Assembly (NCBI RefSeq): GCF_023074835.1
Contig: NZ_JALLGW010000001.1
Location: forward strand, 2,852,001-2,916,000
Length of the DNA stretch: 64,000 bases
Origin: Halomarina salina
GTDB lineage: Archaea > Halobacteriota > Halobacteria > Halobacteriales > Haloarculaceae
Direction: 5' to 3'
The notes beneath the pieces are model-generated. The model ran no database searches. It was not told the DNA's origin and saw only the letters and a program-made list of their open reading frames with translations. Every line of letters starts with the position of its first letter. The first letter of the stretch is position 1. The position numbers and the translations under genes were made by a program. Below, piece after piece: positions 4,755 through 47,959 of the stretch.

Positions 4755-7700
4755 GTGGCATCAGACAATACCCAAAATTCAGATATATTCGGCGATTGGA
4801 ACGAGCGATCCGCCATCGAAATCACGCCAACGACCGATTCATTAGATCCGATACAGGTCGTTCGCCACCTCAAGCGGTGTCACTCGGTTCTCGATGAGGA
4901 AATCTTGGAGTGGCAACTCATCCTCGATGGGGGAGGGTGCACCTACCGCATCAGTGCACCTCCGAGGGTTCTCGATGATATTCACCCGATACTCCGCGAG
5001 GCGCTCGCTGGGTACGCACTCAGACGGGTCGAGATCATGGAGCCATTGCCAATCGATGAAGCGTCGCTGTGTGGCGTCGAATTCGAGGGCCACGGTGCCC
5101 GGAAGAATGACTGGCAGACTGGACTTCGGCCACTCATCACCGATACCACACCTGCCCACAACGCACCCGCTCACAATGCACCCGCACGTGACACGAAGCC
5201 GGCGTTCACCTCGCTCGTCAACTCACTTGCAGAGACCGAGGCGACCGTCGTCTATCAGGCGCTTCTCACGGCAAGAGACGACTGGACACATCTCGCCGAT
5301 GACCGCCGCTATCAGCTGAAACACAACCTCGATACTGTAGCCATGCGCTTGGGGAACTTCCTGTTTCCCCCGGATCCCGAGGCAGACATCGAACCGTATG
5401 AGGGACACGAAGACCGCATCGAGCGCATCACATCGATGGACACCAGGTGCTCGTTTACGGTTGCCGCTCGAGCGATTGCGTGGGGACCCGAAAGCGACCA
5501 TGCACTCAAGAGCCTCACGTCTGCGCTCAACACATCGAGGGGGAAATACTACGAGCCAGTCGGTGTCCACAGCGATCAGCCACTGCAGCTCGCTGAGCGG
5601 ATGGGCGCGCGCACGATTCCGACCTGCACGATGCTGATGCGACTGTTTATCTGGCTTCTCGGCAGTAGTGTTCGTCCGACGCTGGTTGCAGATGCCCGAT
5701 CGCTTGCCCATTTCTGTACCATCGATGGTGGCCAACTCACGTCGAACGGACGGCGCAGAATTGCTGCAACACCACCAGAACGAACAGGCCTCCCCCAGCC
5801 AGCCGAGAACATCCTCGACCAGTACAAGTCGGGCTTTCCACTCGGAACTGCGCTCTCGAGTGATGGCGAGCCGACCCAACAGATAGCACTCCCACCGTCG
5901 ATGCAATCACGACATATCCTGATTCTTGGGAAGTCAGGTGCCGGGAAGACGATTTTCGGGGAGTCTGGTATGCTCAATAACCAGCCGCGTCAATCCGACG
6001 CGACCGATGGGAGGTCACCTCGCCAACTCGGGGCGTCGATTATCATCGATGGGAAGGGAGATGGGATGCCCCAGGAGTACCTTCAGGCGCATTATGCGAA
6101 GCATGGAACGCTCGATGGTGTCTATTACTTCAAGTGTGCGGAGATACTCCCTGCGGTCTCGTTTTTCGATATCGAACCAGCCCTTTCCTCGAACATACCA
6201 CGAGAGCAAGCCGTCGAGGATATCGCCGACCACTACATCGAGATCCTCGAAATCATTATGGGCACCGAGCGATTCCACCAGGCGGTAAAATCGCCCTCGG
6301 CAATCCGCTATCTCATCAAGGCACTGTTCGACCCAGTCCATGGGGGCGATGCGTTCTCACACGATGCCCTGGAGAAGGCAGCAGTGGACATGAAAGCGAC
6401 AGAGGATGCCCCTCCGGTAAGCGATGAGAATCTCAAGCGAATGCTGGGGAGTATCACCTCCGATACAACCCAGACTATCGAGATGGTGATGGGTGGCGCA
6501 GAGACCCGCATCAACAAGATTCCCGAAGACAGCCGACTCAAAAAGCTCTTCACGCACGTTCCGGAGGAGGGTGATGCCCAGTTCGCATTTAGCGATGTCC
6601 TCGATGATGAGAACGCCACGATCATCTTCGACACCAGCGGCTTTCGGTCACGGTCACAACGAGCCCTCACGCTCGTCTTGCTCTCGAAGCTCTGGACCGC
6701 GCTCAAACACCGGGCAACCAACCAGATGGGGGACAATCCAATCGTCAGCCTCTACATCGAAGAGGCGGCCGACGTCGCCTCCACGCGCCTCATGACCGAC
6801 CTGCTCAGCAAAGGTCGTGGGTTCGACCTCTCGGTCGTGCTGTCGATGCAGTTTCCCAAACAGGTACGCGCGGCCAGTACCCGCGGCTATGCCGAGCTCC
6901 TCAACAACATCTCGACGCTCATCTCGGGGAACGTTGCGGTCGATGCTGACCTCGCTACCCGGTTTGCAACCTCGGATATGTCCGCCACTGAGGCTGGAAA
7001 CCGACTCCGCTCGCTCAAGCGTGGAGAGTGGCTCGCCAGCCTGCCCAGTGAATTCGGCGTTCCAGAGCCACGGCCATTCACACTCCAGTCGCCCTCACTT
7101 CCCGATGGGCATCCCGAGAGCGACCGGCCACTGACGCCAGCGATGCAGGCGGGATTCGATGGCCTGTTCGACTTACTCCGCGAGGATACCCTCGATCAGT
7201 ACGGTATCGATATCACGGACACTGAGAGAGCCTCCGCAGCCCCCAGCAGCGAGCCAACGGTGACACCTGACCACGCTCACGTGTTAGAATACACGAAGCG
7301 CTTCCCGGAGGGCATCGAATACGACGCTACCGCAGAGGTGATCGTCTGCTCACACTGTGAGACGCGCTATAAGACATCACTCGATGGCTTGCTTATGGCT
7401 GTCGAGTGCTGCTATGGCCTCGACCGTCTCGACCGTGAGGACGTCCCGCTCTGTTCGCTGTCAACCAAGCTCTCGCCGGATGAGCGGGCAGCAACGGGCT
7501 ATTCCAACCAGCAGGTGTTCTTCCTCCAGGCGGTCTATGACGCTCACCAACAGCGCGTCGACTCCGACTGGGAGTACAACCTCATCTGGGATTCGATGGT
7601 CAGACTTCAGGAGTACACTGGCGTTACGCAGCACCATGTGAATGAGCTCATCGACGACGGTCTTCTATCGAAAGACACGGATTATCCGCACCGACTGTTC

Positions 7701-8240
7701 ACGGTTACTGCTGGGGGCCGCTCCCTACTGAATGAGGCGCATAAATCCGGAATCGCATTCGGTGATGGAGAAGGAGACCTTGGCGAGTCGAGTTTCCATG
7801 TCGCGATGGTTCTCCTCGGGATGATGTTGCTCCAGCGCAACTACGTCGAAAGCCCAGATTCGGCGGCAACACACGTCCAGGCATACTACGATATCGGCGG
7901 GAGCTCACGACTCGATGCAGTGGCGTTGAACGACGATGGAGAGGTCATCGTCACGTTCGAGGCCGAGCGACTCAACCACGATATCGCCGAAGCCGTTCCA
8001 AGCGACTACGATAAGATGGGAGCGTTCGACCCGGAAGAGGCGATCTGGCTCGTCGAAAGCCGGAAAGCCGCCCACAAGCTCCTCAACACCCTCAATGACC
8101 CAAACGAGGGGCCACAACGTGTCGAGCAAACCTACAGTGAATCGACGGCGCCGCGAGACTTCATTATCGACACGCCCGGACTGACCCAGGTGTACACGTT
8201 CCGTGACGTGCGTGATATGCTCGCCGAGGACACCGAGTAG
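4755..8240 (+). CDS. Conjugation/DNA-transfer type P-loop ATPase (TraD/VirB4-like)
   Basis: The 1161-residue protein starts at a GTG. Walker A is HILILGKSGAGKT near residue 395. The Walker B-like strand SLYIEEAADVAS lies near 670, followed by the sensor-like region GRGFDLSVVLSMQFPKQV. This fits HerA/FtsK-type ATPases of conjugative coupling systems, common in haloarchaeal plasmids and integrated elements. Around residue 875 a CSHC...CC cluster may bind zinc; then comes a winged-helix-like stretch (EYTGVTQHHVNELIDDGLL) and a C-terminal domain of unknown function. A PAHNAPAHNAPA repeat sits near residue 135. It is the only intact transfer gene visible; no relaxase or pilus genes accompany it. 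Confidence 0.65.
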   Translation: MASDNTQNSDIFGDWNERSAIEITPTTDSLDPIQVVRHLKRCHSVLDEEILEWQLILDGGGCTYRISAPPRVLDDIHPILREALAGYALRRVEIMEPLPIDEASLCGVEFEGHGARKNDWQTGLRPLITDTTPAHNAPAHNAPARDTKPAFTSLVNSLAETEATVVYQALLTARDDWTHLADDRRYQLKHNLDTVAMRLGNFLFPPDPEADIEPYEGHEDRIERITSMDTRCSFTVAARAIAWGPESDHALKSLTSALNTSRGKYYEPVGVHSDQPLQLAERMGARTIPTCTMLMRLFIWLLGSSVRPTLVADARSLAHFCTIDGGQLTSNGRRRIAATPPERTGLPQPAENILDQYKSGFPLGTALSSDGEPTQQIALPPSMQSRHILILGKSGAGKTIFGESGMLNNQPRQSDATDGRSPRQLGASIIIDGKGDGMPQEYLQAHYAKHGTLDGVYYFKCAEILPAVSFFDIEPALSSNIPREQAVEDIADHYIEILEIIMGTERFHQAVKSPSAIRYLIKALFDPVHGGDAFSHDALEKAAVDMKATEDAPPVSDENLKRMLGSITSDTTQTIEMVMGGAETRINKIPEDSRLKKLFTHVPEEGDAQFAFSDVLDDENATIIFDTSGFRSRSQRALTLVLLSKLWTALKHRATNQMGDNPIVSLYIEEAADVASTRLMTDLLSKGRGFDLSVVLSMQFPKQVRAASTRGYAELLNNISTLISGNVAVDADLATRFATSDMSATEAGNRLRSLKRGEWLASLPSEFGVPEPRPFTLQSPSLPDGHPESDRPLTPAMQAGFDGLFDLLREDTLDQYGIDITDTERASAAPSSEPTVTPDHAHVLEYTKRFPEGIEYDATAEVIVCSHCETRYKTSLDGLLMAVECCYGLDRLDREDVPLCSLSTKLSPDERAATGYSNQQVFFLQAVYDAHQQRVDSDWEYNLIWDSMVRLQEYTGVTQHHVNELIDDGLLSKDTDYPHRLFTVTAGGRSLLNEAHKSGIAFGDGEGDLGESSFHVAMVLLGMMLLQRNYVESPDSAATHVQAYYDIGGSSRLDAVALNDDGEVIVTFEAERLNHDIAEAVPSDYDKMGAFDPEEAIWLVESRKAAHKLLNTLNDPNEGPQRVEQTYSESTAPRDFIIDTPGLTQVYTFRDVRDMLAEDTE

Positions 8241-8260
8241 TCGGGCCCTGCTACCTGATT

Positions 8261-8350
8261 CAAGGAGAGCGTCCCGGCCTTCAGGTCGGGCGTGATACCA
8301 ACCGCGTTCAGTCCGAACCACGCGGTCATGCTGGCCGGGGTCGTCTCTCG
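8261..8350 (-). repeat. TnpB-element right-end remnant
   Basis: On the minus strand the sequence reads into a 7-bp stem at 8273-8290 (CCCGACC, loop TGAA, GGCCGGG) followed by ACGCTCTCCTTGAATC. The short upstream frame (AWFGLNAVGITPDLKAGTL) has the look of translated haloarchaeal transposon-end sequence. No intact TnpB domains remain. Its 3' end faces the large ATPase gene 21 bases away. The call rests on resemblance to the other ends in the island. Confidence 0.35.
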
Positions 8351-8501
8351 GGTGACTCAACGCGGAAAACTGGAGGTGGTTTGGCGTTCCTCCCGTCGGC
8401 GTGGTCGATAACACACCGTCGACCGGATTCACGTCCACCGACGCACCCGCCGAAAGGCGGGCATCAAAAACGCGAGCCTGCCGCGCCTGAGCCGGTCCAC
8501 C

Positions 8502-8747
8502 GTGGCAGAAAGGACAGGCCGGTCGATGGCACGACCCGTGCCCGGACGCGAAGAAATCGACCGCAGAGACATCAACACGTCGAGAGCCACCATGCACGGC
8601 TCGCCACAGAGCCCGCCGGGCAACCCCGCGTTCTCTCGGTTGAGACTGCTGAGCGACGAGCAGCTAGCAACCCACGAGGAGCGGCTTCTCAACGACCTGG
8701 ATTACCTCGAAAAGGGTATCGAGCAGTTCACCAACGAGACGAACTAG
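8502..8747 (+). CDS. Possible small helical protein, unknown function
   Basis: 81 residues from ATG 8502, or 51 from the internal ATG at 8592. The C-terminal half (LLSDEQLATHEERLLNDLDY, then LEKGIEQFTNE) has an amphipathic helical, acidic pattern typical of expressed haloarchaeal proteins. The N-terminal half does not. No family was recognised. It sits in otherwise degenerate DNA and could be the tail of a decayed gene. Confidence 0.3.
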   Translation: MAERTGRSMARPVPGREEIDRRDINTSRATMHGSPQSPPGNPAFSRLRLLSDEQLATHEERLLNDLDYLEKGIEQFTNETN

Positions 8748-10289
8748 TCCTCGCTGGCGGCCAGCGCGGTGTACCCCCCGACGAGATTGCCGACGTCGCT
8801 AGTGTGAATCGCCTCGGTCTAGGCCCGAATCACTCGCCTTGGCTTCCTGAAGAAGTGGACATCTGGTCACGTCTCGCCGACCGAGTGAGCACCCACCACT
8901 GTCAGCGCACTCCCAAGCGTGCGTCACCATCCTGTCATTCTGCCAGCGCGAAGCCGCCTCACTCTCCATCGCCGAGACTCACACCCACCCCTCAGGAGAG
9001 CCCGATAGCTGAAGATGTGTCATGACAGTCCCGACTCGACGGATGCCATCGAGCACCCACTGTTCCACACATGGCCCCAACCCCCGGTAGATAGCGTTAC
9101 TCTCCAGTGTGTGGGCACTCACCGCCGTCAGGCCAACCGATCGATAGCCACGGGTGACGGCCCGACCAGCGTGGCTCAGTAAGCCCTCCGAAAACAGCGG
9201 GTACAGCCACTAACACGACCACCTGCAAAGCCGCTCATGACCATACGCCACAGGCGAAAACCGATAGACTGCGGCCATGTGTGGAACGCTGTATCCCCGT
9301 CCAGTCAGCCGGTAGGCGCCGTTCAGTAGTATTCACCAGCACCAGCGATTCACCCGCCAGCGTGCAGTACGACCTCTCAGACAGTGAATTTCGACCCCCA
9401 CTATGCCACCGTCAGAAACGCAATCCCCAGGTATTCACACATGCATAATCGCACGAGGGCGTCCATGTGTGGAACTACTCTCCCCTCAGGGAACACGAAT
9501 CGCAGTGGCACTCCACCCAAGCGCAGCACAGTCACGACCCGTACTCGGCCGCAAGACGGCCAGTAGCCCCCATATATCGCTGTTTTCGGACTCACCGGCG
9601 ACTACTCGGACACACCGGGGGGAGGGCGTCCCACGGACCAGCTACAGACACCAGTCGCCACATACCGCAATAGAGGGCATCTACCGGTCTTTTAGTCCAT
9701 GTGTGGAGATTCGTTCATCCATGGAAACACGAAGCGGTGCCCGTCCATCCGATCTAGTCAGTGAGCAATCGTGAGTGCTGTCGGTCGAACGGCATTCTGC
9801 AACACGACATCAGGGAATAATGTTCGCCAACGCTGGTCATTGCTCGTTCCGCGAAGCGGGCTCGAGTAGGATGGTGCGCATTCACGCCGCAGGTCGAAAG
9901 TCTCCATATGTCCACTTTCCCAGGTGGGACTCTGCAGCCGGATTGGCGCTGTCAATCAGCTTGTGCAGAGCATTTCGGAGAGCGCCCCAACGTCAATCGC
10001 GGGTGTGCGCACCGTCGTACTCAAGCAGCTGATAGAGACAGCGAAGGAATCTCAGATAGACACGGCGAGAGCCTCAGGGCGTGAACAGCGAGCGTCGAAA
10101 CGAACCAGTCGGACGCTTTCACCAACGGGAGAGGGTTACGCTAATAACCGCACTAGACCGGTCCAGAACCCTCCTGCAAGCGTGCAGTTCTGAGCCGGTG
10201 CCATCACCTTGCGCCACGCGGAGCAGAGACTACTGCGGTACCGCCACATGCACCTACCCTGCAATCCACGGCTGTTTTACTCAAACACA
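8748..10289. other. Gene-poor degenerate DNA
   Basis: About 1.5 kb without a convincing gene on either strand. Open frames here are short and lack acidic coding character. The notable content is the 13-bp motif CCATGTGTGGAAC, present in four copies or near-copies between 9062 and 9709. The stretch could be decayed mobile DNA or a noncoding control or replication region. Confidence 0.6.
9062..9709. repeat. Interspersed motif CCATGTGTGGAAC
   Basis: Exact copies lie at 9275-9287 and 9463-9475 on the plus strand and at 9062-9074 on the minus strand. A copy with a changed last two bases is at 9697-9709. Near-copies occur at about 9434-9443 (TTCACACATG) and 9719-9727 (TCCATGGAA). The core TCCA-N4-TGGA is itself an inverted repeat, as expected for a dimeric DNA-binding protein. 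Spacing is irregular (about 190-235 bases). Operator cluster, iteron-like origin element or transposon relic are all possible. Confidence 0.55.
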
Positions 10290-19001: not shown

Positions 19002-19646
19002 TTACAGCGCGACCCAGTCGGTAGAGACGTCGGCCTCGTGGAGGTGCCAGCGCTGTTCGACGTGTCGGGCCCCGGCAGGGAGCTGGACCTCGATGGTCCC
19101 ATCGAACAGGTCGGCGAACCGTGCTGCGGCCTCGCCGCCACGTTCGACTGGGAAGTGGACGTGGCACATCCCGTCAACGTCGCGGACGGCGGTGAGCACG
19201 TTGTCGAGGAACCGCTCGACCTCGGCTGGGTCGTGGCCGTCGACCAGCGTCCGGAGCGAGTCGAGACAGACGCGGAGTTCACCGGGGTCGAGCCCACCCG
19301 CTTCGCGCTCGATGGACTCGACGGCCGCGATAATCTCGCGTTCGAGCGTCACGAGGTCTGACGGCCCGTCACCAGCGGGCGACGCCGACGCCGTCGCGCC
19401 GCGGGTCACGGGCCGACGATCGATGACCCGGACCGACTCGTCGTCGGTGCGGTCTGCTGCGCCTGGGACGCCATCGGTGAGGACGACGAGTCTGTGGCGT
19501 AGCTGGTCGCTCCCGTCGCCGAGGAGTCGACGGCAGGCGGCCAGATGCGTCTCCTGGGCGGCCGCCCCGACGACGAGCAAACCGCTCCCGTGGCGCTTCA
19601 GAGACGCCAGCGCCTGTGTGAACGTACCGATGGAATCGCCTGCCAT
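19002..19646 (-). CDS. DUF7504-type protein (orphan paralog)
   Basis: 214 residues from ATG 19646. It resembles a degenerate RecA/KaiC-like domain: a first strand SGLLVVGAAAQETHLAACRR where a P-loop would sit but without the GK[ST], a middle strand HRLVVLTDGVP, a later ELRVCLDSLRTLVDGHD and a final FDGTIEVQLPAGARHVEQRW. The same order of motifs is found in the protein at 41805-42572, which is linked to CHAT proteins. No CHAT gene lies beside this copy. The DUF number is from memory. Likely a non-catalytic regulatory or scaffold protein. Confidence 0.6.
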   Translation of the reverse strand: MAGDSIGTFTQALASLKRHGSGLLVVGAAAQETHLAACRRLLGDGSDQLRHRLVVLTDGVPGAADRTDDESVRVIDRRPVTRGATASASPAGDGPSDLVTLEREIIAAVESIEREAGGLDPGELRVCLDSLRTLVDGHDPAEVERFLDNVLTAVRDVDGMCHVHFPVERGGEAAARFADLFDGTIEVQLPAGARHVEQRWHLHEADVSTDWVAL

Positions 19647-19742
19647 ACGGATTCTTTCTAATCCTCGGTTGGGGTAGATAATAAGATTTGCGCAAGTAAA
19701 TAGGGCGGTAGATGTTTTGCCGGGTACCTCCTCGGACGAGAC

Positions 19743-20657
19743 ATGAGCAGACGGTCCGACGACGATCTCTCCGCCCTCCTCGACGAGCTGTCGGGGACGC
19801 TCGACCGGCTCCAGACGGAGCTCGACGACGACCGTGGCCGACGCGGGCGCGGCGAGCGACGAGGCGACCGGGACGGGAATCGCCGTGACAGGGGCCGCCG
19901 TGACAACCCCGAGGAGCGACGAGCGCCACGACGTCGACGGGAGCGGAGCGGTCCCCAGATTCCCCGACCAGGCACGTTCCTCAAGTTCACCGAGGAGTAC
20001 ACGATTCCCGCACTCATCGCGTTCCTCGAAGCGAACGTTCGCGCGCTCGAACTCCTCCAGGGACTGCTCCGCCTCCTTCGCGGGGGCGAGGTCTCCGAGA
20101 GCCACGTCGAGTCGGTCGGTCGGCGGACACTCGGACAGGTCGATGGCCTCCTCTCGGACGTGCAGGGCGCACTGGAGGGCCAGCCGTCGAACCCGGAGGC
20201 GCGCGACCTCCTCGACGAGGCGCGGTCGCTCCGCGGGGAGATAGACGACCGTATCGCCGGCGGCGCGATTCGCCGTGAAGGAGAGCGAGGCGGACGTACC
20301 AGCGGGCGAGACGACGACCGTCCGACCGGGAACGACCGCAGGAGTGACCGGCAGGGTCGCAGCGCTCCGGTCGCTATCGACGTCTCCGACGACGACGGAC
20401 GGGGGAACGACCGCCGTGGAGACGAGAGTCGGGGGAGCGACCGGCGACCGAGCGACCAAGACCGCGAGGAACGACGGGGCGAGGACCGCCGCGACGGCGA
20501 ACGCGCCCGCCGCGACGAGGTGGACGTGGATTCGGAACTCGACTCGCTCCGCAGGCAGGTCCGGGGCGACGCGGACGACGACACGAGCAACGACGTCGAT
20601 GCTGCTGGTAGCGACGACTCGGGAGGCGACGACGCGGACGACGGAGACGGCGAGTAA
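19743..20657 (+). CDS. Haloarchaeal conserved protein with disordered Arg/Asp-rich tail
   Basis: 304 residues. The N-terminal region has a short amphipathic helix (DDLSALLDELSGTLDRLQTE) typical of a haloarchaeal family I recall as DUF7547. An Arg-rich linker follows, then a conserved core at about residues 75-175 (FTEEYTIPALIAFLEANVRA, LELLQGLLRLLRGG). The last ~130 residues are disordered Arg/Asp/Gly repeats (DDRPTGNDRRSDRQGRS). No enzyme motif is seen. A nucleic-acid or envelope role is possible but not shown. Confidence 0.65.
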   Translation: MSRRSDDDLSALLDELSGTLDRLQTELDDDRGRRGRGERRGDRDGNRRDRGRRDNPEERRAPRRRRERSGPQIPRPGTFLKFTEEYTIPALIAFLEANVRALELLQGLLRLLRGGEVSESHVESVGRRTLGQVDGLLSDVQGALEGQPSNPEARDLLDEARSLRGEIDDRIAGGAIRREGERGGRTSGRDDDRPTGNDRRSDRQGRSAPVAIDVSDDDGRGNDRRGDESRGSDRRPSDQDREERRGEDRRDGERARRDEVDVDSELDSLRRQVRGDADDDTSNDVDAAGSDDSGGDDADDGDGE

Positions 20658-39108: not shown

Positions 39109-39243
39109 ATGGTAGACCCAGATGGCTCGGTCGTACTCACGGACCACCCGCGTCTCGTCGGCGTCGTCTTCACAATCCTGCTCGCGCTCTCTCGGGCAGG
39201 CGTCGCGGCCTCGAACACCGGTAGTACCGTCACCGGGCCGTAA
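39109..39243 (+). CDS. 44-residue hydrophobic protein (DUF7503-like), left copy
   Basis: Too short for most gene callers. The sequence has a polar N-terminus (MVDPDGSVVLTDHPRLVG), a membrane-type segment (VVFTILLALSRAGVAAS) and a conserved C-terminal GSTVTGP. It aligns without gaps at about 19 of 44 positions with the protein at 44809-44943, sharing HP-x-L-x-G, LSxxGxAA and GSTxxGP. A TATA-like box sits 18-25 bases upstream. It converges on the left CHAT gene with only 7 bases between the stops. It is probably a small membrane peptide; the DUF name is from memory. Confidence 0.72.
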   Translation: MVDPDGSVVLTDHPRLVGVVFTILLALSRAGVAASNTGSTVTGP

Positions 39244-39250
39244 GTCGGGA

Positions 39251-41566
39251 CTAGAGCGTCGGGTCGACGTCGTCGGGGAGGTCGTCGCTCCAGCAGACAC
39301 CGTCGTGGTCGGGCGTCGTCACCGGCAATCGCTCCATCGAACAGAACTCCTGGAACTCCCGCGCGGACATCGTCAGGGTCGTCATCCGACCAGCACCGAG
39401 GAACCGCCGCTCGACGCCGTCGACGGTCGGTGCGTAGATGCCCCCCAGGTTCCCACGGGTCGGGAAGCCGTGCACGGTTATCTCGAACCGGCCGTCGTCG
39501 GTCCGGACGAGGTCCCAGCGCATCGGGATGCCGCTCCGGTTCTGTGCGACGGTCAGGTTCTGGTCGCCCACGACGAGGTACTGGTCGCCCGCGGCCGTCT
39601 CGCTGCCGAGGACGTCGATAGCCCCCCCGAGGGAGAAGCCCGCGTTGAGCAGGCGCGCGACGGTCCGGCCGAGGCCGGTCGCCGCCGCGTTCTCGACGTT
39701 CTCGACCGTGGCGACCCCGCCGATGGCCCCGGCGTCGACGAGGTGGTGTGCCTGGACGTACGACCGACACGCGTTGAGCATGAAGGCACGGACGGCCACA
39801 CGGTCGAGGGTGGCGGCGTCGAGGTAGCCGTCGGCGCACTGGAGGCCCCGCTCGTCGACGTGGCCGACGTAGTGGAGGAAGTCGCAGTCGGTCTGGAGGA
39901 GGTCGACGAGTTCCGCACGCGTCACCTCCTCGTAGGTCTCGACGCTGAACGCCACGAGGTCTCGAAGGCCGTAGAGCCCCGAGACGGCGAGCTCCTCGCG
40001 CATCTCGGGGTCGTTGGCGACCACCGCCACGTCGACCTCGCCGCTGGCGGTCGCGTCGAGGCGGCGTCGACTCGCGCCGAGGTCGGGTTTCGTCCCGCCG
40101 ACCGGGTAGCCGTCGCCGACCCAGACCTGTTCGATGCTGTCCGTCGGTCGCGGGACGACGACCGTCTCGTCCGCGAGCGTCGGTGAGGCCGACCCACCGT
40201 CCCCGCGCGACGGGGCAGCCGACTCCGGAGTGTCGTCACCTCCACGTTCCGTCGAGTCCCCCGGCAGGCGCCCGTTCGTCGTGTCCGTCGCGGTCGGCAG
40301 AGGCCGCTCGCTCGCCCCGCTCGGTCCGGTCGGTCCGCCCGGTTCGGCGTCACCCCCTCGGACGAACGCGTCGAGTGCGGTGGTGCCGCCGCGTTCGTCC
40401 GTCTGCGGTGACGGCGACAGGCAGCGAACCACGCCGAGGTCGTCGGCGACGTACGGGAGGTGCTCCAGTCCGTCGTACCGGGGGGCGACGTCGGCCGTGA
40501 GCTTCCAGCGCGGGACGGCCGGTGTGACGACGTCGAACGGGACGTCGAGGTAGGCGCGCGTCCGATCGGCGAGCGGCGCGTCGTACAGCGCACCGAAGTC
40601 CAGCGACCGACCCGTCTCGGCCAACCGTCGTTCGACGCGGCGGCGCTCGTCCAGGTCGAACGGGTAGAGCCCCTCGGTCCGGGTCACACACTCGAAGGTG
40701 AACAGGTGCTGGAGCGTGCGCGCGACGCGTTCCTCGAACGACCGTGACCCGCCGACGTGACGCCGTCCGCGGGCGTCGGTCTGTCCGGCCGCTCCTCCCG
40801 ATGTGGTGTCGTCGAGCGGGAACGTCCACCCGTGGTCGTCCGTCCGGAGGCGTGGCCGCGCCCCGAGTTCGACGCGCGCGTCGAGGAAGAACGCGAGCGA
40901 GGTAACTGGGTAGAGATACCGGAGCGACGGCGGCACCTCGACGACGAGTCGCCGTGTGCGACGGTCGCTCGACAGCGACTCCGGGACGTGGAGTTCGTCG
41001 CCGCGTTCGAGGAGGGGTGGGTGCCCCCGGAGCGTGGGCCACGACCGTTCGGGCGACGTCGTCTTGAGCGCCGACCCGAACTGGGAGAGCGCCGCCGCGA
41101 CACCCTCGGGCGTCTCCGGGACGGTGACGGTCGCCGCCGGGTGGTCGTGGCGGGACCGTGTGCCGATTCGGAAGCGGGTTGCGTCCGCTGCTTCGACGAC
41201 TCGTCCGTCCTCGTCGGCGTAGGTCGTGAACCCACCTTCGACGTGGAGGTACGTCTTCACCGCCGTCGACGACAGTTCGACGGTCCAGACGCCCGGTCCC
41301 AGGCTTCGCGTCTCTCGGCCCGCGACCTCGCAGGCAACCTCGCCGCTACCGTCGCGGACGATCAGGACCGGGAACTTCGGTATCCGGACGGCCCGCGTCC
41401 GGAGGACGACGGCGTCGTCGACGGGGAGACAGAACGGCTCGGTCGAACACCCCTTCGGCCGGACGGGCGTCGGCGTTCGGAACTCCGCGCGGACGCCCAT
41501 GACGTCGTCTGCGACGACGAACCCGGTCGGTGACGACGTGGGCGTGACGTTCAGTCCCGCTCGCAT
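39251..41566 (-). CDS. CHAT-domain (caspase-like) protein, left copy
   Basis: 771 residues from ATG 41566. An upstream in-frame start at 41668 abuts a TATA-like box and would be transcribed too early. An N-terminal beta-rich region is followed by conserved blocks shared with the right copy (QFGSALKTTSPERSWPTLRG, PLADRTRAYLDVPFD). A disordered Pro/Thr/Asp-rich linker spans about 445-510. The C-terminal CHAT protease domain has the catalytic His in CDFLHYVGHVDERGLQCADG and Cys in RAFMLNACRSYVQAHHLVDA. Both catalytic residues are intact. It faces the small hydrophobic protein at 39109-39243 tail to tail. Confidence 0.82.
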   Translation of the reverse strand: MRAGLNVTPTSSPTGFVVADDVMGVRAEFRTPTPVRPKGCSTEPFCLPVDDAVVLRTRAVRIPKFPVLIVRDGSGEVACEVAGRETRSLGPGVWTVELSSTAVKTYLHVEGGFTTYADEDGRVVEAADATRFRIGTRSRHDHPAATVTVPETPEGVAAALSQFGSALKTTSPERSWPTLRGHPPLLERGDELHVPESLSSDRRTRRLVVEVPPSLRYLYPVTSLAFFLDARVELGARPRLRTDDHGWTFPLDDTTSGGAAGQTDARGRRHVGGSRSFEERVARTLQHLFTFECVTRTEGLYPFDLDERRRVERRLAETGRSLDFGALYDAPLADRTRAYLDVPFDVVTPAVPRWKLTADVAPRYDGLEHLPYVADDLGVVRCLSPSPQTDERGGTTALDAFVRGGDAEPGGPTGPSGASERPLPTATDTTNGRLPGDSTERGGDDTPESAAPSRGDGGSASPTLADETVVVPRPTDSIEQVWVGDGYPVGGTKPDLGASRRRLDATASGEVDVAVVANDPEMREELAVSGLYGLRDLVAFSVETYEEVTRAELVDLLQTDCDFLHYVGHVDERGLQCADGYLDAATLDRVAVRAFMLNACRSYVQAHHLVDAGAIGGVATVENVENAAATGLGRTVARLLNAGFSLGGAIDVLGSETAAGDQYLVVGDQNLTVAQNRSGIPMRWDLVRTDDGRFEITVHGFPTRGNLGGIYAPTVDGVERRFLGAGRMTTLTMSAREFQEFCSMERLPVTTPDHDGVCWSDDLPDDVDPTL

Positions 41567-41666
41567 CGGCCCGGTGGATGGGGGGCGGCGGTCACCGGCT
41601 GACGGTGCGACGACTCGGCAGGTGAACTCCCGGTCGACATTTCGTGCGCTAGTCCGCCCCCGCATC

Positions 41667-41782
41667 AAATATAGTTTCGCACTAAAGATATGGAATTAAA
41701 GTCGCGCGTTGATGTGGCTCCCGACACCAACACTCCAGCGAGATAGACAATATTTCATGGCTCTCAAAACTATTATTTATAA
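41667..41782. promoter_or_regulatory. Divergent promoter region of the CHAT locus
   Basis: This is the AT-rich centre of the locus. The minus strand has ACTATATTTG (41666-41675), placing a start site near 41645 for the left CHAT gene. The plus strand has TTTATAA at 41776-41782, about 23-29 bases before ATG 41805, which supports a leaderless start for the DUF7504-type gene. Both halves of the mirrored locus are transcribed outward from here. Confidence 0.55.
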
Positions 41783-41804
41783 CTGCGATGTAGAGAAAAT
41801 TGAA

Positions 41805-42572
41805 ATGGTCGAGTTCGCCGACCCGCACGACTCCGCACCACCTCGCCGCCGTCCGACGGCGACGCCCGACGAGGCGTCGCTCAGAACGGACGACACCACG
41901 CTCGGCGAGACGTTACGGGACCTCAAGCGGCGGGGGTGCTCGGTGCTCGTGACGGGGGCGGTCCCGTTCGAGACGCGGGCCGCCATGTCCCGCCGCCTGT
42001 TCGGTGTCCCCGACGAGCGGCGCTTTCGACTGCTCGCCGTGACCAACAGCGTCGGTCTCCCGGTCGCCCGTTACCTCCCGGACGGTCTCGGGGCGCGGGA
42101 CGACGCCGTGACCGTGGTCGACTTCGCCGACGAACTCCGGGGAGGAGTCGCGGCGAGTTCGGGCGACACCGGTACCGCCACCGGTTCGTCACCCACCGTC
42201 CGCACCGACGACGCGGACCGGGTCGCGTCGCTCGGTACCTCGCTATCGTCGGCGGTCGCGACGGTCGCAGACCGCGTCGATACGTTCGCGCCAGGCGAAC
42301 TCCGGGTGGGCGTCGCGTCGCTCTCTGGTCCCTACGACGAGGAGGAGGCCGACCGCGTGCGCACGACGCTCGGCTCGATGGTCGAGGACGTCGTCGACCA
42401 CCGGGGGATGGTCCACTGTCACCTGCTCGGCGAGGCCGACGGCCGGACGGCGAACGGGCTGATGCCGTCGTTCGACGTCCGCATCGAACTCCGCGACCGC
42501 GGAACTGGGACCCCCGAACACCGGTGGGTCGTCCCCGAACAGTCGGTGCGGACGGCGTGGGTCCCGCTGTGA
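41805..42572 (+). CDS. DUF7504-type protein of the CHAT locus
   Basis: 255 residues from ATG 41805. It shares the motif order of the paralog at 19002-19646: LKRRGCSVLVTGAVPFETRA in place of a P-loop but without GK[ST], then FRLLAVTNSVGLPVARYLPD, APGELRVGVASLSGPYDEEE, FDVRIELRDRGTGTPEHRWV. The degenerate nucleotide site suggests a scaffold or sensor rather than an ATPase. The stop overlaps the start of the right CHAT gene (GTGA), so the two are translationally coupled and likely interact. Upstream ATG 41757 is possible but lies before the TATA box. Confidence 0.72.
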   Translation: MVEFADPHDSAPPRRRPTATPDEASLRTDDTTLGETLRDLKRRGCSVLVTGAVPFETRAAMSRRLFGVPDERRFRLLAVTNSVGLPVARYLPDGLGARDDAVTVVDFADELRGGVAASSGDTGTATGSSPTVRTDDADRVASLGTSLSSAVATVADRVDTFAPGELRVGVASLSGPYDEEEADRVRTTLGSMVEDVVDHRGMVHCHLLGEADGRTANGLMPSFDVRIELRDRGTGTPEHRWVVPEQSVRTAWVPL

Positions 42573-44758
42573 CAGCGCGACTCGCCATCGAGGCGTCGTC
42601 GGACGCCGGCGTCGTCGTCGTCGACGACGTCCAGGGTGTGACCGTACGGTTCGACACGGCGTCTCCCGTGTCGCCGGTCGTCGAGTCGCCGGAGGACACC
42701 GCCCTCCCGCTCGACGCCCTGGCGAGCCTCGACACCGCGGCCATCCGCGTGCCGAAGTTCGTCAACGTCATCGTCCACGACGACCACGGGACCGTCGTCA
42801 GTCAGGTCACGAACCGCCAGCGGACCCGTCTCCCATCGGGGCAGTACGTCCTGGAACTGGAGAGCCTCGCGGTGAAGACGTACCTCGTCGTCGACGGCAC
42901 CGTCGAGACGTACACCGACGAGTCGGGCCGCGTCGTCCGGGTGTCGGGGGCCGACACGATACGACTCGGTGCCCGGTCCCTCCACGAGTTCCCGGCCGGG
43001 ACCATCACCACCACCGACGACCCGGCGGACGTGATGGCGGCCGTCTCCCAGTTCGGGTCGGCGCTCAAGACGACGTCGCCCGAACGGTCGTGGCCCACGC
43101 TCCGGGGCCACCCGCCGCTCCTCGAACGCGGCGACGAACTCCGCGTCCCGGAGTCGGTCAGTGGGGACGGCGACCGGCCCGTCACGATTCGGGTCCCGCC
43201 CCGTCTCGACGCCGTCTACCCGGTCGCACCGCTCGCGTACTACCTGAACGCCCGCGTCGAACCCGGCGAGTCGCCGGTCCTCCTCGCCGACGGAACCGAA
43301 CATCCCCTGGACGACCCGAACGTCGAGACGGGCGTCGAGCGGACGCTCCGCCACCTGTTCTTCCTCGACTGCCTCACCCGGACGGAGGGGCTCTACCCCA
43401 TCGAACTGGCCGAACGCGAGGCCGTCGAGACCGTGGACCTCGGCCTCGACTTCGCAGCGCTGTACGACGCCCCGCTCGCCGACCGGACGAGGGCGTACCT
43501 CGACGTCCCGTTCGACGCACTCGACGACCACCGGCCGCGCTGGAAGACGACCGCCGACGTGCGGCCCGTCTCGTCGTCGGTCGAACAGCTACCGTTCCTC
43601 GTCAACGACCTCTGTACCATCCGCTGTCCCGGCCCGCGACGGGACAGCGTCACCTCGCCCACGACGAGTACCGTTCGCGAGTTCGCTCGCGGCGACCCGG
43701 TCGGTCGGGTCGGTGGCCGGGTCATGAGCGACGGTGGGACGGCCCGGTCGGAGGCCGCCGACACGACGCGGCGCTTCGACGACTGCGAGCGGTCGGACCG
43801 CATCGTCGGCCTCCCCCGAACCGGCAGCATCGAGCACGTCTGGGTCGGCGACGGCTACCGCATGGGGTCGGCGAAACCGACCGTCGCCGCCAGGAAGCGT
43901 CGGTTGAACGCCGTCACGAGCGGTCCCATCGACGTGGCCGTCGTCGTCAACGACCCCGAGATGCGTGCCGAGGGGAGCGTCCAGAACCGGTACGGCCTCC
44001 GCGAACTCGTCCAGTTCGACGTCTCGGTCCACGAGGAGCTCGACCGTACCGGGCTCCGCTCGCTGCTCACCGAGGACCGGGACTTCGTTCACTTCGTCGG
44101 CCACGTCGACGAGCGGGGCCTCCAGTGCGCCGACGGCTACCTCGACGCCGCAACGCTCGACCACGTTCGAACGCGCGCGTTCGTCCTCAACGCCTGTCAG
44201 TCCTACCGGCAGGGCCAGCACCTCGTCGACGCCGGGGCTATCGCGGGCGTGGTGACGTTCGTGATGATCGGTAACGACGCCGCGACCCGCATCGGACGGT
44301 CGCTCGCGCGTCTGCTCAACGCGGGGTTCTCCCTCGGCGGCGCGCTCGACGTGGTCGGTGAGACGGACCTGTTCGCCAAGCACTACGGCATCGTCGGCGA
44401 CCAGAACCTGACGCTCGCGTCGTCTCGCGGGTCGACCCCCATCAGCGTCGAACTGTGCCGACTCGACGACGACGATGGTGCCGACGGTGACGATGGTACC
44501 AATAGTGACGACAGTGACGACGACGAGCGGTTCCGCATCTCCCTCCACGGTCACCCCGCGGGCCGCATGGGGCCGGGAGCGGTGTACTCGCCGAACGTTC
44601 CCACGAACACCCGGCGCTACCTCAACGCGGGTCACGTCGACGACTTCGACCTGACTCGCGACCAGCTCGCGACGTTCCTCCGGCTCGAACGGTTCCCGGT
44701 CGTCGTCGACGGTGACCTCCACTGGAGCGAGTCGCTCTCGCTCGAAGACGTCGATTGA
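42569..44758 (+). CDS. CHAT-domain (caspase-like) protein, right copy
   Basis: 729 residues from GTG 42569, overlapping the DUF7504-type gene by 4 bases. The layout matches the left copy: beta-rich N-terminus (TARLAIEASSDAGVVVVDD), the shared block QFGSALKTTSPERSWPTLRG at about residues 165-195, PLADRTRAYLDVPFDALDD, and CHAT catalytic His in RDFVHFVGHVDERGLQCADG and Cys in RAFVLNACQSYRQGQHLVDA. A short acidic Asp/Gly insert (DDDDGADGDDGTNSDDSDDD) sits near residue 635. The 3' end meets the small hydrophobic gene at 44809-44943 tail to tail with 50 bases between. Confidence 0.82.
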   Translation: MTARLAIEASSDAGVVVVDDVQGVTVRFDTASPVSPVVESPEDTALPLDALASLDTAAIRVPKFVNVIVHDDHGTVVSQVTNRQRTRLPSGQYVLELESLAVKTYLVVDGTVETYTDESGRVVRVSGADTIRLGARSLHEFPAGTITTTDDPADVMAAVSQFGSALKTTSPERSWPTLRGHPPLLERGDELRVPESVSGDGDRPVTIRVPPRLDAVYPVAPLAYYLNARVEPGESPVLLADGTEHPLDDPNVETGVERTLRHLFFLDCLTRTEGLYPIELAEREAVETVDLGLDFAALYDAPLADRTRAYLDVPFDALDDHRPRWKTTADVRPVSSSVEQLPFLVNDLCTIRCPGPRRDSVTSPTTSTVREFARGDPVGRVGGRVMSDGGTARSEAADTTRRFDDCERSDRIVGLPRTGSIEHVWVGDGYRMGSAKPTVAARKRRLNAVTSGPIDVAVVVNDPEMRAEGSVQNRYGLRELVQFDVSVHEELDRTGLRSLLTEDRDFVHFVGHVDERGLQCADGYLDAATLDHVRTRAFVLNACQSYRQGQHLVDAGAIAGVVTFVMIGNDAATRIGRSLARLLNAGFSLGGALDVVGETDLFAKHYGIVGDQNLTLASSRGSTPISVELCRLDDDDGADGDDGTNSDDSDDDERFRISLHGHPAGRMGPGAVYSPNVPTNTRRYLNAGHVDDFDLTRDQLATFLRLERFPVVVDGDLHWSESLSLEDVD

Positions 44759-44808
44759 ACGATAACAAATCGCCGAGAAACGGACTGGTGTCGAGAACCG
44801 GTCGCCGA

Positions 44809-44943
44809 CTACGGGCCACCCAGCGTCGACCCTGCGGCCGCGGCCGCCGAACCCACCTGTGAGAGTGCGATGAGCGCCACGAAGAGGGCTCCGGTCAGTT
44901 TCGGGTGGTTCGCCAGTCGTTCTGCAACCGTGGTCTTCGACAT
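44809..44943 (-). CDS. 44-residue hydrophobic protein (DUF7503-like), right copy
   Basis: MSKTTVAERLANHPKLTGAL begins a protein of exactly the same length as the one at 39109-39243. A membrane-type segment (FVALIALSQVGSAAAAA) is followed by the conserved end GSTLGGP. A TATA-like AATTATATAA on the minus strand (44964-44973) lies 21-30 bases upstream, giving a leaderless transcript. Together with the left copy it frames the two CHAT genes symmetrically. The hydrophobic core could be a signal peptide, a membrane anchor or a pore-forming peptide. Confidence 0.72.
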   Translation of the reverse strand: MSKTTVAERLANHPKLTGALFVALIALSQVGSAAAAAGSTLGGP

Positions 44944-46087: not shown

Positions 46088-47959
46088 CTACTCCTCGTCC
46101 GCGTCGTCGGCCGTATCGTCGGCAGCGACACCGGGACCGCCACCGCCGAAGACGCCGGCCATCCGCTCCTGGAACGCGTCGAACTGCTCCAGACGCCCCT
46201 CGGCGTCGTCGAGGCGGTCCGAGAGGTCGTCGAGGTCCTCCAGCGTCGCCTCGACGTCGTCCAGCGTCTCGGCGAGGTTCTCGACGCGGTCGAGTTCCTC
46301 GTCGACTGCGTCGAGTCGCTCGGCGAGGTCGTCCGCACCGTCGAGTGCGTCCTCGACCTCGGCGACCCGACTCTCGGTGTCTTCGACCCGGTCGACGGTC
46401 GCCGAGAGTTCCGTACCGGTCTCGTCGAGGTCCGCCGCGACGGCGTCGAGGTCCTCGCTGCTGGCGGCCTCACCGCGGAACGTGTCGAGGTGGTCCTCGA
46501 CCGCCGAGAGGTCGTCGCGGAGGTCCTCGACGTGGAGTTCGACGTCCACGAGGCCGTCCTCCAGGTCGTCCGTCGACGTGTCGAGGGTCTCGACGGCGTC
46601 GGCCGCGTCGTCGGTTCGCTCGTAGAGGTCGTCGATTTCCTCCCGGACCGCGTCGAGTTCCTTCCCGACGGTCTCCGAGCGGTCGTCGACCTCGTCCATC
46701 CGGTCGTCGACCGCCTCGAACCGCTCGTCGGTCTCGTCGGCGTGGGCCGCGAGTTCGTCGACGCTCTCGTCGAGGGCGTCGACCCGTCCGTCAACGTCGT
46801 CCACGCGGTCGTCCACGTCGGCGACCTCCGTCTCGACCGTCTCGACCCGGTCGTCGACCGCGTCAACGTCCTCGCTCGTGGCGTCGAGTCGCTCGTCCAC
46901 GTCGTCGACTCGGGTGTCGACCGTCTCCACGTCCTCGTCGACCGAGCCGATGCGGTCGTCGTGCGCGTCGAGCCGCGTCTCCAGCGAGCCGAGTTCACCG
47001 CGCAGATCGCGCAGCAGAGTCTGTGCGTCGCCGTTCTCGTCGAGGAACTCCTCGAGCGCGTTCACGTACGCGCGAAGTTTCGTCACGTCCTCGCGGATGG
47101 TCGCTAGCTGGGCCGTCTCGCTTCCGGACGGCCCCTCCGCGCCGAGCGCACCCCGGAGCGCGTTCTCGACGGCGGGGTCGACGCTCCCGTCGCGCAGTTC
47201 GCGAGCGAGCGCGGCGGCGACGCCGCCAGCCGCGGGGGCGGCGTCCAGAGCGTCGTTCTCCGTCGGTGGAGTGGCGGACGTCGTCGAGGCGGCTCCGGCC
47301 GCGTCGGTGGCGTCGTCGCCGTCGGGGGTCTCCGTCGTCTCGTCGGTCGTCGAACCGGCCGTCGCCGAGTCAGTCGTCTTCGAGTCGGCGACGGTCGAAC
47401 CGGACGATTTCGACTCGGTCGACCCGCCGGCCTCCTCGTTCGGGTCGCTCAGCTGGATGGGTTCTATCTCGTCGTCCTCGTCGGTCTCCGCCTCCTCGAC
47501 GAGGTCGACGGCTTCGGCCTCCTCTTCGAGACCCGGTACGGTGTCGGCGTCGCCCGAGATGACGTCGCGAACGGGGTCGCCGCTGTTGGTCCCGAGGACC
47601 GCCGCCGCGGCGTCGTCGACCTCGAGGGTCGGGTCTTCGAGGAACGTCTCCGCGGCGTCGACGTCCTTGTCCCGCAACGCGTAGACGGTCGTCACCGACT
47701 CGCCCGCGGCGAGGTCGCGTTCGAAGACGAGGTCGCCGTCCTCGACCGACCAGAACTCCTCGCCGAAGTCGGGGTGGAACCCCACGTCGTCCGGCGTGAC
47801 GTCCTCGGGGAGGTGGTCGACGACGCGGCACGTCACGCGCTCCTCGCGCTCCGACGTCACCACGAACGCGATTGCGGGCACCGGGAACTCCTCCGGTTCG
47901 AACGACTTCTCGACGGTGACGTCGTTCGCGGCGACGACACCGGTAGCCAATTCACTCAT
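46088..47959 (-). CDS. Long acidic coiled-coil protein
   Basis: 623 residues. Residues 1-110 form a beta-rich domain found in several haloarchaeal proteins (ATGVVAANDVTVEKSFEPEE, GFHPDFGEEFWSVEDGDLVF). A disordered Asp/Thr/Ser linker spans about 120-245. Residues about 270-600 are a near-continuous heptad coiled coil (VDDRVETVETEVADVDDRVD, LDAVREEIDDLYERTDDAAD) ending in GVFGGGGPGVAADD. The heptads would form a rod tens of nanometres long. No nucleotide-binding motif is present, so it is not an SMC ATPase. Role unknown, possibly structural. Confidence 0.8.
   Translation of the reverse strand: MSELATGVVAANDVTVEKSFEPEEFPVPAIAFVVTSEREERVTCRVVDHLPEDVTPDDVGFHPDFGEEFWSVEDGDLVFERDLAAGESVTTVYALRDKDVDAAETFLEDPTLEVDDAAAAVLGTNSGDPVRDVISGDADTVPGLEEEAEAVDLVEEAETDEDDEIEPIQLSDPNEEAGGSTESKSSGSTVADSKTTDSATAGSTTDETTETPDGDDATDAAGAASTTSATPPTENDALDAAPAAGGVAAALARELRDGSVDPAVENALRGALGAEGPSGSETAQLATIREDVTKLRAYVNALEEFLDENGDAQTLLRDLRGELGSLETRLDAHDDRIGSVDEDVETVDTRVDDVDERLDATSEDVDAVDDRVETVETEVADVDDRVDDVDGRVDALDESVDELAAHADETDERFEAVDDRMDEVDDRSETVGKELDAVREEIDDLYERTDDAADAVETLDTSTDDLEDGLVDVELHVEDLRDDLSAVEDHLDTFRGEAASSEDLDAVAADLDETGTELSATVDRVEDTESRVAEVEDALDGADDLAERLDAVDEELDRVENLAETLDDVEATLEDLDDLSDRLDDAEGRLEQFDAFQERMAGVFGGGGPGVAADDTADDADEE

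Follow-up and report, generated by a model that had tools for sequence, protein, structure and literature searches.

A mirrored pair of CHAT proteases and small Gly-Pro-ending proteins in Halomarina salina, and a candidate protease-peptide module of Halobacteria

Layout of the locus

We analysed a 64,000-nucleotide stretch of the Halomarina salina genome (RefSeq assembly GCF_023074835.1, contig NZ_JALLGW010000001.1, positions 2,852,001 to 2,916,000), hereafter the window. At 39109-44943 of this window two genes for CHAT-domain proteins, CHAT-L and CHAT-R, are each met tail to tail by a gene for a 44-residue protein of Pfam family DUF7503. This pairing recurs across Halobacteria, and the small protein reads as a pre-peptide whose tail could be a ligand or substrate of the facing protease. 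The locus holds the following features, in window coordinates.

39109..39243, + strand: DUF7503-L, 44-residue candidate pre-peptide (Pfam PF24335, E = 2e-12; translation)
39211..39240, + strand: tail codons of DUF7503-L, SNTGSTVTGP, predicted to be exported (from sequence and family alignment)
39251..41566, - strand: CHAT-L, predicted caspase-fold protease of 771 residues (His codon 39860-39862, Cys codon 39767-39769)
41660..41810, no strand: AT-rich divergent promoter region, CHAT-L / DUF7504
41805..42572, + strand: DUF7504, KaiC/RecA-fold protein without the Walker-A lysine (Pfam PF24336, E = 5e-35)
42569..44758, + strand: CHAT-R, predicted caspase-fold protease of 729 residues (His512 codon 44102-44104, Cys543 codon 44195-44197)
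44809..44943, - strand: DUF7503-R, 44-residue candidate pre-peptide (Pfam PF24335, E = 7e-16; translation)
44812..44838, - strand: tail codons of DUF7503-R, AAGSTLGGP, predicted to be exported (from sequence and family alignment)

DUF7503-L and DUF7503-R score 46.9 and 58 bits against their family profile and DUF7504 scores 122 bits against its own, with a gathering cut-off of 27 in both families. The DUF7504 start (about 41805) was set by a TATA-like box and by the orthologue at locus L024 of Halomarina rubra, the open reading frame permitting 41757; the start of CHAT-L is uncertain, lying at 41566 or at an ATG at 41665.

An earlier note on this DNA had described two paralogous CHAT proteins with intact VGHVDERG and LNAC sites, each facing a 44-residue protein across gaps of 7 bp (DUF7503-L/CHAT-L) and 50 bp (CHAT-R/DUF7503-R). 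Both the sites and the coordinates bear this out. The note also had the two CHAT genes transcribed outward from an AT-rich centre. A promoter region does lie there, but the centre also holds a third gene that had been missed, DUF7504, whose last 4 bp are shared with the beginning of CHAT-R. Because DUF7504 sits in the right arm only, the mirror is incomplete. Promoter-like boxes accompany both small genes, as an AT-rich stretch just upstream of DUF7503-L and a TATA-like box upstream of DUF7503-R.

CHAT-L and CHAT-R share 51-53% amino-acid identity. The same mirrored arrangement is present at L024, to whose counterparts CHAT-L and CHAT-R are 68% and 73% identical, more in each case than the window CHATs are to one another. 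As each CHAT is closer to its L024 counterpart than to its paralogue, the inverted duplication is older than the species split. The proposal of a module duplicated in inverted orientation agrees with the two CHAT/peptide pairs of the window and with those at L024; it does not extend to DUF7504, which is unduplicated, and outside these two loci single CHAT/DUF7503 pairs are the rule.

Over alignment codons about 160-200 (around SQFGSALKTTSPERSWPTLRGHPPLLERGDEL) CHAT-L and CHAT-R are 91% identical in DNA and 85% at third positions, against about 63% overall. Judged by sequence, this tract is likely the product of recent gene conversion between the two genes. The L024 CHATs show a weaker identity peak (83%) at the same place.

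Pairing across Halobacteria

The association was scanned from both partners. On the protease side, using one genome per species, we collected 78 CHAT loci, one of which (L070) stops at a contig edge. A small gene accompanied 57 of the 66 loci whose CHAT bears the His-Cys dyad, namely 54 DUF7503 genes within about 200 bp and three convergent Gly-Pro-ending small frames (L047, L074 and L076), whereas a recognisable small gene stood at 0 of 11 dyad-less loci (Fisher 2.5e-8, uncorrected for phylogeny). On the peptide side, DUF7503 occurred in 49 of 59 Halobacteria genomes, with 70 genes in all. Sixty-eight of these 70 had a dyad-bearing CHAT gene in tail-to-tail orientation no more than about 260 bp away. 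Seven of the ten genomes without DUF7503 also lack a CHAT relative (G036, G037, G001, G007, G014, G017 and G021). Haloferax volcanii, one of the control genomes, and Halobacterium salinarum are among the genomes carrying the module.

The earlier note had proposed that protease and small gene form a module, and had held that this would fail if the two occurred independently in most genomes. With 68/70 DUF7503 genes and 57/66 dyad-bearing CHAT loci paired, and with the Pfam matches, the pairing is general in Halobacteria and far beyond chance, and the module stands firmly.

The two DUF7503 genes without a facing CHAT are at L181 and at L102, a further CHAT/DUF7504 locus of the window genome just left of the window (5049-9533 of 2840000-2852000). 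At L102 an open reading frame with HNH repeats, of homing-endonuclease type, lies between DUF7503 and DUF7504 and parts the small gene from its CHAT. We had considered a decayed second CHAT beside the displaced small gene; none was found, the HNH-repeat frame occupying that place. At L185 (G012) a single CHAT is faced by two DUF7503 genes in head-to-tail order whose C-terminal 44 residues are identical.

Architecture of the partners

For the small protein, 103 distinct leader-tail sequences were aligned on the [H/N]P[R/K] motif. Conservation is strong in the leader, with Pro in 103, Gly6 in 100, Leu15 in 98, Phe9 in 95 and Gln17 in 85 sequences. Towards its end, position -5 is Gly in 87 and Ala in 10, position -3 is [V/A] in 98 and position -1 is Ala in 101. 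A [V/A]-x-A with such residues at -3 and -1 conforms to the textbook signal-peptidase-I site. Following this family rule, cleavage is predicted between VAA and SNTGSTVTGP in DUF7503-L and between AAA and AAGSTLGGP in DUF7503-R.

Beyond the site lies a variable tail, with positions of 2.7-3.4 bits entropy before the terminal Gly-Pro. In the aligned set tails are 8 or 9 residues long, 97 of 110 are distinct and 3.4% is charged. In close pairs the proportion of nonsynonymous differences (pN) was 0.30 in the tail versus 0.06 in the leader, about five-fold, the leader rates being biased downward because the pairs were picked by leader similarity. Gly-Pro forms the C-terminus in 118 of 124 distinct DUF7503 genes. 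Each of the four Gly codons and each of the four Pro codons is used, so the constraint acts on the protein level; at these two residues the nonsynonymous rate is zero while the synonymous rate (dS) is about 1.5. The six tails of the window genome are all different, and the window tails resemble those of their own L024 orthologues (STVTGP and SAVSGP on the left, GSTLGGP in both on the right). Taken as a whole, DUF7503 reads as a pre-peptide with a signal-peptide-like leader, a signal-peptidase site and a variable tail, rather than as a pore.

The genes with another ending are at L149, L153, L157, L181, L186 and L189, and four of the six have an NG-rich end (NNGTVT, NGSTIS, NGGAIS and NGGSIY). 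Among five non-GP pairs, we found no CHAT residues that separate GP from non-GP partners.

For the protease, an AlphaFold2 model of CHAT-R from a 50-sequence alignment reached a predicted local distance difference test score (pLDDT) of 87 and a predicted template modelling score of 0.87. Foldseek matched its C-terminal part to SAVED-CHAT (7e-6), separase (1e-5), caspase-3 (1e-2) and also gingipain. Good structural alignment was confined to the C-terminal 200-260 residues or so, and for the N-terminal region, about 350 residues long, Foldseek gave no solved relative of its own. His512 and Cys543 (CHAT-R numbering; GH and LNxC motifs) are invariant in 74/74 dyad-bearing homologues and in 95/95 distinct CHAT-peptide pairs. 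At E<=0.1 the Pfam CHAT profile (PF12770) picked up 18 of the 50 members, the best with 1.3e-5, and neither window CHAT was among them. By fold model and dyad the CHAT proteins are caspase-fold proteins and predicted cysteine proteases.

A CHAT-like clade without the dyad (L088-L095, L097, L099 and L101, from Halolamina, Halarchaeum, Halovivax, Halospeciosus and others) retains the PTLRGHPP N-terminal region; these are putative pseudo-proteases, and no peptide gene accompanies them. Halobacterium loci L054, L060, L085, L158 and L162 carry two or three CHAT genes in tandem; their dyads are intact, and no DUF7503 partner is recognisable.

The third gene, DUF7504, gave a model of pLDDT 81 with Foldseek matches to KaiC and RecA (best E 2.7e-6), and a Walker-A lysine is missing from its alignment. 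Many Halomarina and Halorussus loci have the gene immediately upstream of CHAT, other loci place it about 1 kb downstream, and a first scan did not detect it near Natrialbaceae pairs. Since many CHAT/DUF7503 pairs do without it, DUF7504 is probably an accessory scaffold. In the neighbourhoods inspected it alone recurs beside the module in operon-like fashion, and no recurring regulator was seen.

Other associations were dropped. A steady glycerol kinase/glycerol-3-phosphate dehydrogenase-like locus, noticed by eye in Natrialbaceae, is read as shared synteny and not as a functional guild. The module shows no sign of being a virus gene set, with no CHAT relatives in IMG/VR or a phage collection, and PADLOC profiles gave no match to a known defence system for the five locus proteins. 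Within the window, a 623-residue acidic protein with a very long coiled coil adjoins the module (46088-47959, - strand) and had generic coiled-coil matches only. A second DUF7504 domain forms the C-terminus of a 485-residue protein (19002-20459, - strand) with no CHAT gene nearby; this is the genome's top DUF7504 match (161 bits), and its DUF7090 match is weak.

Possible roles and relation to known systems

Sequence and models supply the pairing, the dyad, the protein-level selection, the leader, site and tail, and the folds; from these we propose export, uptake or retention, binding and protease targets as follows. DUF7503 and CHAT, often joined by DUF7504, would form a two-gene unit. The leader would take DUF7503 to the Sec machinery, and signal peptidase I would cut after the fixed [V/A]-x-A, leaving outside the cell a tail of 8-9 residues whose Gly-Pro C-terminus is free. 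CHAT would be a cytoplasmic cysteine protease of caspase fold, dedicated to that tail as its partner. The tail may re-enter through an oligopeptide transporter, or stay inside when export fails, and its binding to CHAT would set proteolytic activity; the pair would therefore report on cell density, on kinship or on export status. The variable tail core would separate paralogous pairs, with Gly-Pro as their common anchor. A role for the tail as cognate ligand, or as substrate, of the facing CHAT protease is, in our judgement, a serious possibility that falls slightly short of being probable. The wider reading, an archaeal peptide-pheromone system in which class-wide exported 8-9-residue Gly-Pro peptides each have their own caspase-fold protease receptor, is tentative and at present rather doubtful. 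If true, haloarchaea would use a caspase relative as a switch for cell-cell communication or kin-dependent suicide.

Several observations weigh against the ligand reading. GP-ending convergent frames without a hydrophobic leader occupy the same position at L074 (Halobacterium salinarum), L076/L150, L160 and L164; their placement counts for the reading, yet such products could not be exported by the proposed route, and they are few, and candidate genes only. Six of 124 DUF7503 genes lack the Gly-Pro end. The N-terminal region of CHAT contains no known peptide-binding domain or tetratricopeptide repeat (TPR) by Pfam (50 members) or among the listed fold matches. Twenty dyad-bearing CHATs in the tree have no adjacent peptide gene. 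The dyad-less, peptide-less homologues are essentially one clade, so that the correlation of dyad and peptide amounts to about one evolutionary event. Finally, conservation of the leader exceeds that of ordinary signal peptides, and the leader may itself be a functional membrane helix.

Ranked second is the alternative in which DUF7503 remains in the membrane as a single helix that activated CHAT cleaves or releases, whereupon it oligomerises and permeabilises the cell in a caspase/gasdermin-like manner. The leader helix does have conserved small and polar residues (G6, T10, S16, Q17 and G19), the dyad is intact at every peptide-bearing CHAT, and dedicated partners are known for bacterial CHAT proteases (Craspase TPR-CHAT, PMC9729208). 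Such an effector would leave the near-invariant [V/A]-x-A and the hypervariable 8-9-residue Gly-Pro tail unexplained. The positive charge before the helix predicts a tail on the outside, away from a cytoplasmic protease, and a few lineages retain a GP-ending frame with no helix at all. We regard a membrane effector as unlikely. The earlier note's suggestion of a small membrane peptide controlling permeability or cell death is for the same reasons unsupported, and the gasdermins it invoked are not involved, the partner being a 44-residue protein to which Pfam assigns DUF7503 only.

Another possibility is a toxin-antitoxin or immunity pair, with a toxic CHAT inhibited by DUF7503 through its GP tail and dyad-less CHATs needing no inhibitor. 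The lack of a small gene at all 11 dyad-less loci, the paralogue-specific tails and the promoter-like box of each window small gene would suit this arrangement. An export-site leader is an odd attribute for an inhibitor of a cytoplasmic enzyme, however, and about one clade underlies the dyad correlation. In the tree the small gene has been lost repeatedly beside intact CHAT dyads (20 cases), which argues against an obligatory antitoxin, and the explanation appears improbable.

Judged marginally less probable again is export surveillance, whereby failure of Sec or of the membrane potential, for example under virus attack, would leave the uncut GP-ended pre-peptide inside and switch CHAT on. It shares the architecture of the ligand reading while making re-import unnecessary, and under it the leaderless variants would be constitutive or subject to a different control. 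It has no need of a hypervariable tail, and the PADLOC result above also counts against it. Finally, the idea that the 44-residue frames are non-functional and that the 3' end region is conserved at the DNA or RNA level, as an antisense 3' overlap or a terminator, draws on CHAT/DUF7503 gaps that cluster near zero (median 14 bp, 18 of 95 pairs overlapping), but with some gaps up to 250 bp, pN/pS far below 1, and Gly-Pro codons that use every synonym and show zero nonsynonymous against high synonymous change, it is in substance refuted by codon use and substitution rates and retains very little probability.

A 2025 paper (PMC12240190) counts three true archaeal quorum-sensing cases, the signal molecule being unknown in two, and a single gene with an empirical tie to a pathway; none of the cases counted is peptide signalling. 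The open-access literature yielded no paper that mentions DUF7503 or DUF7504 (subscription papers and preprints lay outside the search), none joining CHAT domain, haloarchaea and caspase, and nothing useful on haloarchaeal peptide pheromones. A link to the Haloferax disk-forming signal was dropped, since proteinase K does not destroy that signal and a small molecule is what it is described to be. Predicted 8-9-residue peptides in 49 of 59 genomes make archaeal peptide communication directly testable with synthetic peptides. If the ligand reading is true, a prokaryotic caspase-fold enzyme would have its own peptide ligand or substrate, which bears on the origin of caspase-like switches; were the peptide instead a protease-activated membrane effector, it would provide a minimal gasdermin-like death module in archaea.

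Among known systems the RRNPP pairs (Rap-Phr, AimR-AimP, PlcR-PapR and Rgg-SHP) are similar in having a small gene adjacent to a large cytoplasmic partner, a precursor of about 44 residues with a leader of Sec type and a short C-terminal peptide (both predicted in our module), and a variable, pair-specific code. On the ligand reading the module would operate in the manner of the Gram-positive pairs with Phr and AimP, its receptor being unrelated to theirs. In contrast to these, the present genes are archaeal and convergent, the Gly-Pro end is invariant, there is no common sequence, and the partner is a 700-770-residue caspase-fold protease without detectable TPRs. Published RRNPP criteria (PMC10075063) comprise a small propeptide, Sec-dependent secretion, a receptor of 250-500 residues, TPRs and adjacent genes. 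The module has a small propeptide (44 residues) and adjacent genes and, by alignment, a predicted canonical (-3,-1) site with Gly at -5; its receptor would measure 729 or 771 residues, and the same Pfam and fold comparisons contained no TPR. Because of receptor size and the TPR result we do not file the module as RRNPP.

TPR-CHAT/Craspase of type III-E CRISPR (clustered regularly interspaced short palindromic repeats) systems and SAVED-CHAT share the CHAT fold, the His-Cys dyad and a dedicated partner protein. Here no gRAMP, SAVED or TPR domain was found, no CRISPR gene was seen beside the window locus, and the partner is a 44-residue candidate pre-peptide. Operons of bacterial gasdermin and caspase-like protease likewise place such a protease beside a membrane-active-looking partner, but 44 residues are far too few for a gasdermin, the genes are tail to tail and form no operon, and the small protein has an export-site architecture. 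Separase and the caspases (clan CD) resemble CHAT by the Foldseek matches and differ in that the N-terminal region of CHAT is without a solved relative. Pfam already holds DUF7503 (PF24335) and DUF7504 (PF24336), of which the window proteins are members, and gives unknown function for both; the CHAT partnership, predicted export site and GP tail of DUF7503 come from the present analysis.

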